A stretch of 33,706 nt of DNA from Anaerolineales bacterium (GTDB lineage Bacteria; Chloroflexota; Anaerolineae; CG2-30-64-16): NCBI GenBank assembly GCA_017882045.1, contig JADGQF010000014.1, forward strand, positions 1-33,706, read 5' to 3'. Below, piece by piece: positions 4,865-22,378 of this stretch; position 1 is the stretch's first letter, and every line of letters starts with the position of its first letter. A model generated the notes under the pieces. It had not been told where the DNA came from, ran no database searches, and saw only the letters and a list, made by a program, of their open reading frames with translations. Position numbers and translations under genes: made by a program.

Positions 4865-4903
4865 ACCTCTCAGGTGGGCCTGTTCGTTGCCCACCCGCGA
4901 GGT
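4865..4903. repeat. Hairpin repeat, copy 1, between nrdR and ftsZ
   Basis: ACCTCTCAGGTGGGC at 4865-4879 pairs with 4889-4903 at 13 of 15 positions. The left arm and part of the loop are nearly identical to the second copy at 4962-5006, so these are two units of one repeat about 97 bp apart. The rest of the gap (4569-4724 and 4772-4864) holds only the NrdR boxes and no gene I can support. Confidence 0.6.
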
Positions 4904-4961
4904 AATGAACGCGAACCACGTCCAACGTGCGCTAAGGCTCGTTGGCCACGCATATAAGCTC

Positions 4962-5006
4962 AATACCTCTCAGGTGGGCCTGCTCCTTGCTGACCTGAGA
5001 GGTATT
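4962..5006. repeat. Perfect 14-bp hairpin repeat, copy 2, just after ftsZ
   Basis: AATACCTCTCAGGT at 4962-4975 is perfectly matched by ACCTGAGAGGTATT at 4993-5006, with a 17-base loop. It begins 12 bp beyond the ftsZ tail stop codon, where the end of the dcw transcript is expected, and may help to terminate or protect it. No U-run follows on the minus strand. It shares CCTCTCAGGTGGGCCTG with copy 1. Confidence 0.65.
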
Positions 5007-17765: not shown

Positions 17766-18818
17766 TTAGAGCAAGGCCAACGCGATGCCCAACATGCCGG
17801 CCAGGATCGCGATCAGGAAGAAACGTTGTGAGACGTGCGTCTCTGACCAGCCGAGCAATTCGAAATGGTAATGCAACGGCGCCATCTTGAAGATGCGCTT
17901 GCCCTTGCCGGTACGTCGCTTGGTCCACTTGAAGTAGCCCACTTGCAGGACGTCCGACAGCGCCTCGGCCACGAAGACTGCGCCCACGATCGGCAGCAGC
18001 AGCCACTGGCCGGTCATCAGGGCGACCGCGGCCAATGTCGCGCCCAGCGCCAACGCGCCGGTGTCGCCCATGAACAGAGCGGCGGGATACGAGTTATACC
18101 ACAGAAAGGCGAACAGCGCGCCCACCATGGTAAAACAAAACGACATCAGCGGGTATTGGCCCTGCAGATAGGCGATTACGCCATACGCCGCGAAAGCGAC
18201 TGCGGTCGTTGAACCGGCCAGACCGTCCAGGCCATCCGTCAGGTTAACTGCGTTCGACTCGGCGATGATGATGAACATCGCCATGGGAATGTAGATCAGT
18301 CCGAGGTTGATCTTGTCTTTGATCCCGGGCACGGCCACGCTGTGCAGGCCCAGAAAATAGTAGAGGCCAAGCGCAGCCGCCAGGGCAAGGACGAACTGAT
18401 AGGAGGCCTTGATTTTGGCCAACAAGCCCTGGCCGTCGCCGCGCTTGCCGCGGATGCCGGCCACATCGTCAATCGCGCCGAGGTAGCCGAAGGCCACCAG
18501 AACCAGCAGCGGCACCAGGATGGATTTGCCTATCAGCGGGCTGCCCTCCGAGAACTTAAACAGTTTCAGCATCGCCTTGCCCCAGCCCACTCCGCTCAGC
18601 AAGTTGGCAAGGTTAAGCACCACAGTGACCAGGAAGACCGGGACGAGTATCATGATACCGCCCATCGTCGGCGTGCCCATCTTGGTCTGGTGCCCACCCG
18701 GCTCCTCGATATGGATCTGCTTGCCCATCCGGCGGCGTTTGAGCTCGTTGATGAGCGGACGGCCCCAGATAACGGCCAGCAGGAAGGATATCGAGGCGAG
18801 CGTCAGCGCAAAAGACAT
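17766..18818 (-). CDS. mraY: Phospho-N-acetylmuramoyl-pentapeptide-transferase MraY
   Basis: 350 residues, ten or so membrane helices. MraY moves phospho-MurNAc-pentapeptide to undecaprenyl phosphate, making lipid I. Marks are the TKMGTPTMGGIMIL stretch (45-58), the Asp pair in GAIDDVAG (117-118), NAVNLTDGLDGLAGS (189-203), SYPAALFMGDTGALALG around 250 with the catalytic Asp of GDTG, and the C-terminal PLHYHFELLGWSE. The usual HHH motif reads HYH (316-318), a small departure. The DD-x-x-K lysine is also not in its usual place. I chose ATG at 18818, with AGGAAG five bases upstream, over an ATG 18 bases earlier that lacks one. Confidence 0.95.
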   Translation of the reverse strand: MSFALTLASISFLLAVIWGRPLINELKRRRMGKQIHIEEPGGHQTKMGTPTMGGIMILVPVFLVTVVLNLANLLSGVGWGKAMLKLFKFSEGSPLIGKSILVPLLVLVAFGYLGAIDDVAGIRGKRGDGQGLLAKIKASYQFVLALAAALGLYYFLGLHSVAVPGIKDKINLGLIYIPMAMFIIIAESNAVNLTDGLDGLAGSTTAVAFAAYGVIAYLQGQYPLMSFCFTMVGALFAFLWYNSYPAALFMGDTGALALGATLAAVALMTGQWLLLPIVGAVFVAEALSDVLQVGYFKWTKRRTGKGKRIFKMAPLHYHFELLGWSETHVSQRFFLIAILAGMLGIALALL

Positions 18819-18848
18819 GGGTGCTTCCTGGAACATGGTTTCAAGCTT

Positions 18849-20474
18849 TCATTCCTGCGATCGAGCAAGTGCATCGACTATGTTCTCCATTGACAGGTCA
18901 CGGGAGCCTTTGATGAGGACAATGTCTCCCGGCTGGATCAAGCCCTGCAGCAAGGCCAGGGCGTCCTCGTTATTGTCGACCGCGTAAACGTCAGCGGCAT
19001 CCATCTCATCGGCCAGGGCCTCATCGGCGATCCAATGGGCGCGCTTGCCGACCGTGATCAGCTTGCCGCGCGCCCGTTCGTGAACCCGGGCCGCTGCCTC
19101 GGCGGAGGGGTGGTGCGGGCCCTTGTCCGCCTCAGCGCCGGCAGCATGGGCAGCCGGGGTAAGAATCTCAGCCGCTCGGCCGCCGACGACACGGTGGCCC
19201 TCTTCTTCGTACTTGCCAAGCTCGAGCATGTCGCCGAGCACCACCACGCAGCGATGCTCTGAGTTGGCGATGTCGTCCAGGAGGTTAAGCGCGGCCAGCA
19301 TCGAAACCGGGCTGGCATTGTAGGTGTCGTCGATCAGCGTTGAATCGCGCAGCCCACGCGTCACCATCAAACGGAGCTGGCCTCGGACTTCCTGCAAGCC
19401 GGTGATGATCTCCGTCCAACTGAGGCCCTCGACCAGGCCTACGGCAGCGCCGCGCAGGGCAGTATGCACGCTGTGGCGGCCGAGCAGCGGCAGATGAACG
19501 TAGATTTGCTCGTCTTTGTAGTGCAGGCGGAAGCGAATGCCCTCCAACCCCTCGCTACTGACCTGGTCGGCCCACAGGTCGCTGTCCGAACTCAGCCCGT
19601 ACGTGAAGACGCGTGCACGTGTCTGCGCCGACATGGCCCGCACATGCGGGTCGTCGGCATTCAGGATCGCCACACCGCCTTCTTCGGCCGGCGGCAAGGC
19701 TCGGACTAACTCGGACTTCGCCTCCGCGATACGCTCGATGCTGCCCAGTCGCTCGAGGTGGGTTGGTCCCACGTTGGTTACCACCCCGATGCGCGGCCGG
19801 GCGATCTCGCACAGCCGGTTGATCTCGCCCAGGGTGTACATGCCCATCTCGAGGACAGCGCGTTGATGCTCGGGCGTCAGGCGCAGGAGCGTCAGCGGCA
19901 GGCCGATCTCATTGTTGAGATTGCCCTCGCTGCGCAACGTGCTGTAGCGCTTTTCCAGGACATTGGCCACCGTCTCTTTGCTGGTCGTCTTGCCGACGCT
20001 GCCCGTGATGCCGATCACCGTGACAGGCAGTTGCGCGCGCCAGAAGGCAGCCAGGTTGTGCAACGCCTGCAGGCTATCCGGCGCGACGAACACATAGGGC
20101 GTCCGAGCGCCGGCCCCGCCGAGGACGAGGGGACGCGGGGACGCGGCCTGCTCCTCGCCGCGTCCCCGCGTCCCCTCGTCCTCGCTCGGGAGGCTGCGCT
20201 CGAGGATCGTCCCGTCCTGAAGAATGAAGGTGGCGGCGAGGCCGGGAATCTCCCGGGCCTGCGGCCCGGCAATGGCGGCGACCGCGCCGCGCGCAAAGGC
20301 GTCGGCCAGGTACAGGCTGCCGTCGGTCTTCTCGCCGCGCAGTGCCACAAACAAGCTCCCGGACTGCGCCTTACGCGAATCGACCACGGCATCGCGCAGG
20401 GCCACGTTGGCTAATTCGGTAGGCGCCTCGAGGTGACCCAGGAGCGCCTGCCAGACGTGAGAAAGCGTAAGCAT
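18849..20474 (-). CDS. murF: UDP-MurNAc-tripeptide--D-alanyl-D-alanine ligase with in-frame palindrome
   Basis: 541 residues, longer than the usual 450-470. MurF adds D-Ala-D-Ala, the last cytoplasmic step. Domain 1 shows DSRKAQSGSLFVALRGEKTDG; the ATP loop GITGSVGKTTSKET is at 157-170; NLNNEIGLPLTLL, EMGMYTLGEI, NVGPTHLERLGS, GRHSVHTALRGAAVGL and DDTYNASPVSMLAALNLL follow. Residues 98-120, Arg/Gly/Glu-rich, are encoded by a perfect long palindrome (20120-20184) inserted between LQDGTI and the conserved YVFVAPDSLQAL. A second extra stretch near 440-470 (AHAAGAEADKGPHHPSAEAA) lies in the C-terminal domain. ATG at 20474. It stands 30 bp before mraY; murE, normally the upstream partner, is absent. 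Confidence 0.95.
   Translation of the reverse strand: MLTLSHVWQALLGHLEAPTELANVALRDAVVDSRKAQSGSLFVALRGEKTDGSLYLADAFARGAVAAIAGPQAREIPGLAATFILQDGTILERSLPSEDEGTRGRGEEQAASPRPLVLGGAGARTPYVFVAPDSLQALHNLAAFWRAQLPVTVIGITGSVGKTTSKETVANVLEKRYSTLRSEGNLNNEIGLPLTLLRLTPEHQRAVLEMGMYTLGEINRLCEIARPRIGVVTNVGPTHLERLGSIERIAEAKSELVRALPPAEEGGVAILNADDPHVRAMSAQTRARVFTYGLSSDSDLWADQVSSEGLEGIRFRLHYKDEQIYVHLPLLGRHSVHTALRGAAVGLVEGLSWTEIITGLQEVRGQLRLMVTRGLRDSTLIDDTYNASPVSMLAALNLLDDIANSEHRCVVVLGDMLELGKYEEEGHRVVGGRAAEILTPAAHAAGAEADKGPHHPSAEAAARVHERARGKLITVGKRAHWIADEALADEMDAADVYAVDNNEDALALLQGLIQPGDIVLIKGSRDLSMENIVDALARSQE
20120..20184. repeat. Perfect 27-bp-arm palindrome inside murF
   Basis: The arm at 20120-20146, a GGGGACGCGG-type sequence, is the exact reverse complement of 20158-20184; the loop is the 11 bases 20147-20157. 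All 27 positions pair. It keeps the murF frame and encodes about 22 residues (codons 98-119) that have no counterpart in the family as I know it. No second copy occurs in this window. It looks like a mobile palindromic repeat that inserted into coding DNA. Confidence 0.9.
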
Positions 20475-20578: not shown

Positions 20579-22378
20579 TCAGTTTGGACTGATCCCCAAT
20601 ATCCTGACCGTTTCGCTCGCAACCTTCGCAAACACCGGGACAGCCACTTGCTCGGCCCAGCGAGACTTCAGCGGCTTATCCAGCTTCACCATGATCACCA
20701 ACTGCGGGTTGTCGGCCGGCAGGAACCCGATGAAACTGGTGATGCTGGTGCTCAAGACGTAGCCCTGCGGCGTTGGGATTTCGGCGGTACCCGTTTTCCC
20801 GGCAACCTTATAGCCCGGCAGGAAGTTTGCATACGACGAGCTGCTAACGTCGTAAACCATCATGTCTTTCATCTTCTGGGCGGTGTCGGGCTTTATCGGC
20901 CGGCCGATGATGTGCGGACTCACGTAATAGACTAGCCCGTCTTGTACCATTGCCCGCACCACGTGCGGTTGCAGCAGTACCCCTCCGTTGGCGATCGCAG
21001 CTACCGCATTGATCATCTGAACCGGCGTCACCGAAATACCCTGGCCGAAGGAGTTGGTGGCCTCGTCGAACGGGCTCCAATCGCTCTGGCCGCGCTCTTT
21101 AACGATGCCTGCGCTCTCGTTTTTCAGGTCCAGTTCGGTCAACTTACTGAAGCCAAAGCGACGTAGGTAGCTATAGAAGACCTCCGGGCCCATGTCCAGG
21201 CTCATACGCGCTGAAACGACGTTAATCGAATGCGCCAGGGCCTGTGTCGCAGTCACGCGGCCATACTTCATGTTCTGCGCGTTGTGGATCGTTTGTCCAT
21301 TCACCGTCAGCGCGCCGGTATCTTCAAAGACCGTCTCAGGCGTGATGCGACCGGAATCCAGGGCAGCGGACATGGTGACGACCTTGAAAACAGAGCCAGG
21401 CTCGTACACCTCGCTGACCGCTGAGTTGACCCAGGTCTTCGGTTCCACGTCGGAATACTGATTGGGATCGAAGGTGGGATAGATTGCCAGAGCGTAGATA
21501 CCGCCTGTGCGCGGGTCCATCACGATGATCGTGCCGCTCTCGGCCTGATAGTCGTCAAGAGACTGGCGTAGGATCCTTTCTACCACGTATTGTAAAGGTG
21601 CGTCAAGATACAGAACCAGGTCGTGGTTCGCCGGCGATGGCAGGTAGAGCTTCCAGGCGTCGGGCAGAGGCATCGCGGTGCCGGACAAGCTATTGGCCGG
21701 CCAGTTGCCGTCGGTGCGCAGCCAGTCGTCATAACTCGCTTCGACGCCATAGACTCCCTCGCGGCCGGAGTTGACGAACCCGAGCAGGTGCGCCCCGAGA
21801 CTCCCTTGAGGATACGCTCGCTCGCGCACCCAATCGCACCAGACCAGCCCTGGCTGCTTCAGTTTGCGGCCTATCTGAGTGCGAACTGCGTCGCACTGTG
21901 CGTCCGTCGCGCTGTGTTCGAGCGCCACCAGCGGCTGATTGGCCGGAAGCTTCTCCGCCAGGGTGTCCAGCGGCTGGTCGAAGATCTTGGTTAAGCTGAC
22001 AACTACGGTTTGGCCTACGGATGAGCTATAGATGTCCGAAGGGCGGGCCCACACCACCTGCCGGAAATCGTCGGTTGCCAACAACAGCCCGTTGCGATCG
22101 ACGATATGCCCACGCGCGGGCTCGACTGCAAGAGTGGGCACGGGCGCCGCCAGCTTAGTGGTCCGATTGATCGGTAGCTGCCACTGCGCCAGGCGAAACA
22201 TCACGACGAGCATGAGAATGACAAAGACCGCAATCGGCAACCACAGCCGCTGGCCCACGGTGTGGAGGTGGTCGGGCGCCGTTCGAGTCTCTTCACCCTG
22301 TTCGCCGCTGCCGTCCATGCCGGGCGCATCCTCGGCTGCCGGCAGCGGGGCCGTCTGTGTGTAGCGTTTCCATTCCAT
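20579..22378 (-). CDS. ftsI: Septal transpeptidase FtsI (class B penicillin-binding protein)
   Basis: 599 residues. Cross-links new peptidoglycan at the septum with FtsW. A cytoplasmic tail (1-45) leads to one membrane helix (about 46-63). The dimerisation domain begins PARGHIVDRNGLLLATD (88-104). The transpeptidase domain holds all three penicillin-binding motifs: SVFK with the nucleophile Ser329, SIN at 384-386, and KTG at 528-530 in VAGKTGTAEIP. No PASTA domains follow, so it is the short form. ATG at 22378 has GGTGA about seven bases upstream. It lies directly after the ftsL-like gene and is the expected division PBP; a Spo-type or elongation PBP is less likely here. Confidence 0.94.
   Translation of the reverse strand: MEWKRYTQTAPLPAAEDAPGMDGSGEQGEETRTAPDHLHTVGQRLWLPIAVFVILMLVVMFRLAQWQLPINRTTKLAAPVPTLAVEPARGHIVDRNGLLLATDDFRQVVWARPSDIYSSSVGQTVVVSLTKIFDQPLDTLAEKLPANQPLVALEHSATDAQCDAVRTQIGRKLKQPGLVWCDWVRERAYPQGSLGAHLLGFVNSGREGVYGVEASYDDWLRTDGNWPANSLSGTAMPLPDAWKLYLPSPANHDLVLYLDAPLQYVVERILRQSLDDYQAESGTIIVMDPRTGGIYALAIYPTFDPNQYSDVEPKTWVNSAVSEVYEPGSVFKVVTMSAALDSGRITPETVFEDTGALTVNGQTIHNAQNMKYGRVTATQALAHSINVVSARMSLDMGPEVFYSYLRRFGFSKLTELDLKNESAGIVKERGQSDWSPFDEATNSFGQGISVTPVQMINAVAAIANGGVLLQPHVVRAMVQDGLVYYVSPHIIGRPIKPDTAQKMKDMMVYDVSSSSYANFLPGYKVAGKTGTAEIPTPQGYVLSTSITSFIGFLPADNPQLVIMVKLDKPLKSRWAEQVAVPVFAKVASETVRILGISPN

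Follow-up and report, generated by a model that had tools for sequence, protein, structure and literature searches.

In the present study, the perfect palindrome within murF of this Anaerolineales genome was found to belong to a family of octamer arrays in Chloroflexota that form hairpins and have entered conserved proteins repeatedly. We consider it probable, with roughly two chances in three, that a hairpin of the octamer family was inserted in frame and near-neutrally into a tolerant loop of MurF, and that its arms are kept perfect by copying at the DNA level or by recent origin. Several lines of evidence bear on this reading. First, the palindrome at 20120-20184 reported in an earlier note was confirmed in frame in murF within the window (the whole stretch of 33,706 nucleotides analysed here), although its arms measure 28 bp and not 27 bp as given there. 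The left arm (20120-20147; CGAGGACGAGGGGACGCGGGGACGCGGC) and the right arm (20157-20184), which is its exact reverse complement, are 100% complementary and enclose a 9-nt loop (20148-20156; CTGCTCCTC), none of these features being assigned to a strand. This core is nested through weaker outer pairing in a longer hairpin at 20104-20202, whose length of 99 bp is divisible by 3 and whose outer closing arms, likewise unstranded, are CGAGCGC at 20104-20110 and its partner GCGCTCG at 20196-20202. The palindrome has a predicted RNA folding energy of -79.4 kcal/mol, which corresponds to z = -8.6 relative to dinucleotide shuffles. When the window and 477 kb of contigs sampled from the same genome were searched for perfect inverted repeats with loops of up to 100 nt, none was longer, the runners-up being 23 bp. 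Tandem Repeats Finder reported period 8 in both arms, each of which contains three octamers, the left arm consisting of GAGGACGA GGGGACGC GGGGACGC and GGC; therefore, the element is two octamer arrays facing each other and not a unique palindrome, a make-up that had escaped remark in the earlier note. The G-rich arm, by reading, has just two runs of at least three G, short of the four G tracts of the quadruplex criterion of Rehm et al. The variants of GGRGACRC that were tested are stop-free in all six frames, but this was rejected as a special property of the octamer, as about 64% of random octamers at equal GC content share it. Elsewhere in the window, a tandem array with a unit of 21-23 bp in 3.8 copies is located at 1119-1200, and two 40-nt copies, 85% alike and 100 bp apart, are located at 4865-5006, the second copy having a perfect 14-bp inverted repeat (AATACCTCTCAGGT) at its borders and no Rfam match. 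Searches of the window and of six related murF loci gave no Rfam match, and no tRNA-like structure was found.

Second, the host gene has an unusually long joint and is intact. The murF reading frame (18849-20474, minus strand, 541 aa) gives a TIGR01143 match above the cut-off with the insert included, and is flanked, by eye, by a downstream mraY-like reading frame in a dcw cluster context (17766-18836, minus strand) and an upstream reading frame resembling a penicillin-binding protein or FtsI (20579-22378, minus strand). The frame is open on both sides of the palindrome, which is inserted in frame on the minus strand and whose core encodes residues 97-119 approximately. These residues belong to a variable joint of MurF that lies between GAVAAI and DSLQAL (residues 62-131; 20082-20291, minus strand), with the insert in its 3' part. 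The joint comprises 70 residues here, against 39-50 residues in eight sister genera that belong to the host's family (that of G004 counted by eye from its sequence), and the net gain is therefore 20-31 residues. Across approximately 100 Chloroflexota MurFs, a survey in which a few genes were dropped by the motif filter, the span between GA[VI]AAI and DSLxAL covers 28-59 residues, so that the joint examined here is the longest. Neither the palindrome nor its peptide is present in any of the eight sister-genus MurFs, and residues 97-119 are without counterpart in the sister genera or in about 100 other aligned MurFs. The alignment proposed in the earlier note, to see whether residues 98-120 are unique to the lineage, thus shows no counterpart elsewhere, and the observation that the note had named as refuting an inserted repeat, the same residues in diverse MurFs lacking a palindrome, was not made among the approximately 100 Chloroflexota proteins aligned. 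In an AlphaFold model (mean pLDDT 88.2, pTM 0.84, alignment of 23 sequences), the insert is predicted to form a disordered loop between beta strands 89-92 and 126-129, with pLDDT below 50 at residues 108-120, while the rest of the model agrees with solved MurF structures. A second insertion of about 31 residues (TPAAHAAGAEADKGPHHPSAEAAARVHERAR) is located in the C-terminal domain (19071-19163); this insertion has no repeat structure, is not present in any sister MurF inspected, and coincides with a drop in AlphaFold confidence.

Third, octamer arrays are dispersed among related bacteria. Using three consecutive GGRGACRC units with one mismatch permitted, 25 matches were observed in G006, 23 in G004 and 6 in G009, all sister genera, whereas the reversed-pattern control gave no match in any genome of the host's family; head-to-tail octamer units are thus dispersed in related genomes above chance (at most 25 against 0). 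Across the phylum, the exact octamer pattern is patchy, occurring in 9 of 400 genomes with 120 matches in G342 and 85 in G221, and the reversed-pattern controls for the octamer searches in the family and the phylum remained at or near zero. A pattern of two facing arrays gave 52 forward matches in G221, some of them overlapping, two in G006, and one each in G376 and the present genome (control, 0). Inverted pairs constitute a sizeable minority of the array loci, and their convergent arrangement is that of the short tandem dispersed repeat class. Recurrence of the arm sequence, which had been proposed as a check on the palindrome, was accordingly seen as dispersed arrays in the sister genera and the phylum, but the present genome holds no second copy and no other octamer array, murF being the single locus. 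What defines the family is the octamer unit and not a fixed 65-bp element. Dozens of octamer hairpins are found at L315-L327 of G221 and G376, and several of those inspected have common TTCACCACGG...CCGTGGTGAA-like ends and unrelated loops.

Fourth, arrays are carried in frame by at least ten other conserved genes of related bacteria, as determined by reading the arrays in context and testing the array-bearing reading frames against Pfam and NCBIfam. In-frame arrays arranged as inverted pairs were observed in AroA, an HdrD/TfrB-like iron-sulfur protein, NRPS adenylation domains (with a family search on one of two) and the NAD(P)H-hydrate epimerase of G047, and in-frame arrays were also observed in HemA, ArgJ, a nucleotide-sugar (UDP-sugar) dehydrogenase, an ADP-forming acyl-CoA ligase, a Wzx-like flippase and PolA, in the last case between the 5'-3' and 3'-5' exonuclease domains. 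AroA and ArgJ each give a single full-length family match spanning the array, as does the TIGR01035 match of HemA. In phmmer comparisons with solved structures, the array of AroA corresponds to extra residues relative to the solved homologue, and the match of the nucleotide-sugar dehydrogenase is broken in two at its array. These in-frame arrays in many conserved genes support the tolerance of coding insertion suggested in the earlier note. Between FVPDPF and RLYRTGDL, two different NRPS adenylation domains of G006 (L188 and L189) carry a near-identical inverted octamer pair, perhaps through gene conversion. The inter-domain linker of polA in G006 (L185) contains an octamer array followed, a few residues on, by an iterated peptide NLPIYQST, which comes from a different repeat.

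Fifth, in one other Chloroflexota genome (G221), the two arms of a hairpin tend to agree with each other. Among the 36 hairpins listed for G221, within-locus arm agreement at variable positions was 0.81 compared with 0.53 after shuffling, and a value as high was obtained in 0 of 5000 partner shuffles. In 19 of these 36 hairpins the arms are identical at the variable positions over the outer 16 nt, and the loops are unrelated from locus to locus. Because the arms match within loci and the loops differ, the arms thus copy each other or originate together. Template switching at hairpins is known to generate and repair perfect stems (PMC8794818) and is known in Escherichia coli (PMC7202029), and the homogenisation of arms within a locus that it would produce is observed both in the perfect arms of murF and in the concordance of G221. 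We propose the following sequence of events. An array of the form (GGRGACRC)n opposed by a reverse-complement copy of itself would have entered the coding region of murF in the ancestry of this genome, insertion being the probable direction of change. The insert may have survived because its landing site was a solvent-exposed, length-variable and tolerant loop that joins two beta strands in domain 1 of MurF, and because its net length preserved the reading frame. MurF would thereby have gained a disordered loop with 20-31 extra residues, presumably at little cost to the cell. The perfect arms could then be due to DNA copying between arms, by template switching at a hairpin or quasipalindrome as the DNA is replicated, or to recent origin; as far as the pattern goes, template switching appears to be the best-supported route. 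The observations on which this explanation draws are the palindrome, its octamers, its absence from sister MurFs, the intact frame, the in-frame relatives and the arm concordance of G221.

A different explanation is that selection maintains the hairpin as an RNA element of the murF mRNA, acting for instance in ribosome pausing between MurF domains or in regulation of the dcw operon, with analogous stems kept at the joint elsewhere. We regard this explanation as unlikely for the present element, despite the fact that several unrelated lineages show fold-back or iterated sequence at the same joint. When 104 MurF genes were scored, tandem arrays with a period of 6-9 and a score of at least 12 were observed in five joints (G003 being counted twice) and none in the remainder of the gene, which is nearly ten times longer than the joint, and inverted repeats scoring at least 13 were observed in four joints and none outside. 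About four lineages other than the present one carry heptamer arrays unrelated to the octamer, namely GCGGATT/AATCCAA in G003, GATTGCC and GAAATTC in G005, GGGGTTA/TAACCCC in G027 and GTTGCTG/CCAGCAA in G033. The arms flank the first strand of the joint in the heptamer lineages, and both are in the second loop here. In G003 (L048) and G005 (L050), heptamer arrays fill the joint with its length almost unchanged, as if the repeats had replaced loop sequence rather than lengthened the loop. The explanation is further favoured by two other families (f39 and f122; loci L061, L109, L113, L135, L153, L154, L162, L166, L179 and L284-L302), in which a 14-bp stem lies inside the reading frame at the joint; 9 of its 14 pairs show double changes, and its covariation is 0.495 compared with 0.220 +/- 0.024 after shuffling and at most 0.22 in slid controls. 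In these families, a 17-mer of the joint (GTCGCCGGGTTRCAACC) is nearly invariant despite near-saturated synonymous sites, whereas identical-residue codons elsewhere agree about half the time; in 11 genes of f39, seven of 13 fully identical codons are in the joint (columns 132, 133 and 149-153). Against the RNA explanation, 85 other Chloroflexota joints, from lineages without obvious repeats, showed no excess structure (mean z -0.19, like the rest of the gene), so that RNA structure was rejected as a general property of the MurF joint and its fold-back and repeat content is lineage-specific. Moreover, the murF insert is carried by one genome only, and the covariance model of the stem has no match in this genome or window. 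Of 16 genomes searched, 10 gave a single match to the model, each of them belonging to f39 or f122, and the other six gave none; Rfam gave no match for the stem. The 17-mer was rejected as a dispersed repeat, as each genome has only a single copy of the modelled element, located in murF. For this stem, an unexpected lead, there are two readings: an RNA element located within the murF frame, or a stem upheld by template switching together with selection on the 17-mer. More broadly, it is conceivable, and we suggest it only tentatively, that fold-back nucleic acid repeatedly docks at the Chloroflexota MurF joint (octamer, heptamers and covarying stem), where inserted iterated hairpins might provide raw material to be kept as coding-embedded cis-acting RNA or DNA elements in an essential gene.

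Movement of the element as a REP/BIME- or MITE-type non-autonomous transposon, mobilised by a transposase such as RAYT, is quite improbable. The element is palindromic, its kind is dispersed in relatives, and the common ends of several G221 elements would also suit a transposon. However, a fixed transposed unit would have a common loop, and since the loops of G221 differ, arm copying fits better than transposition; array length also varies freely. The Y1 transposase (PF01797) does not track the arrays and is missing from the present genome, from the array-richest genome G342, and from G191 and G376, so that RAYT was rejected as the carrier. A fixed mobile element in this genome was rejected, as no other copy exists. 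The whole murF element is an inverted repeat, and no clear target-site duplication was seen by eye in the flanks. A search for a phage or plasmid source gave nothing of note. A fold-back chimera arising in assembly or amplification is very improbable, despite a draft in 462 contigs, a contamination estimate of 6% and a single observation, because the arm is not copied from the adjoining murF, matches the octamer of the sister genera, and leaves the frame open on both sides. The joint is variable in length across Chloroflexota, but an old MurF feature with codons palindromic by chance is scarcely credible given the missing counterparts of residues 97-119 and a perfect 28-bp complementarity far above the rest of the genome sample.

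A review of bacterial MITEs considered RPE-like protein evolution by in-frame repeat insertion conceivable outside Rickettsia (PMC10969869). Chloroflexota is an unrelated phylum in which such insertion can be counted, through a defined octamer, many conserved enzymes of known structure, and sister genera with and without inserts. The octamer hairpin also makes a simple mechanistic prediction, that arms match within a locus and loops do not, and octamer insertion offers a natural route for enzymes to acquire disordered loops. Furthermore, work on the murF palindrome has led to a covarying structure hidden in murF of two other families.

Compared with known systems, the murF element acts like the Rickettsia palindromic elements (RPEs) but is not one of them, and its closest counterparts are the heptameric tandem-repeat families. 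The suggestion of the earlier note, an unrelated, GC-rich and RPE-like Chloroflexota repeat family that tolerates coding insertion, is supported with respect to behaviour. RPEs are palindromic DNA found in frame in unrelated conserved genes, whose protein products tolerate it (PMC10969869), and octamer arrays are similarly in frame in murF here and in AroA, HemA, PolA, ArgJ and others in sister genera. However, RPEs form families of about 150 bp with a conserved encoded peptide, whereas an 8-bp, GC-rich tandem unit of variable length with locus-specific loops is found in Chloroflexota; the element here measures 65-99 bp, the arrays of its relatives vary in length, frame and peptide, and the present genome has a single locus rather than multiple copies. 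REP/BIME sequences with RAYT are also short, dispersed palindromes, but they are extragenic and carry a tagged single motif, whereas the octamer arrays are uncorrelated with the Y1 transposase. Perfect inverted repeats in functional coding sequence have been described in Nematomorpha mitochondria (PMC6649704), and are shared by the murF element; template switching can generate and repair perfect stems (PMC8794818). Both arms encode conserved protein in Nematomorpha, whereas the arms here are an added loop of iterated octamers. The TAACTGA heptamers of Beggiatoaceae are dispersed tandem units with a patchy phylogenetic distribution and occasional copies within reading frames (PMC4679880), as are the octamer arrays, but they are mostly located just upstream of start codons, are almost only direct repeats, and contain stops in one orientation. 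Finally, the G-rich heptamers GGGNATC of Xanthomonas and Nostoc are dispersed short tandem units of non-triplet length, with 70 and 75 convergent inverted pairs in two Xanthomonas genomes (PMC4692102), and resemble the octamer arrays in both respects; the period is 7 there and 8 here, and the matching of arms within loci is shown here in one genome.
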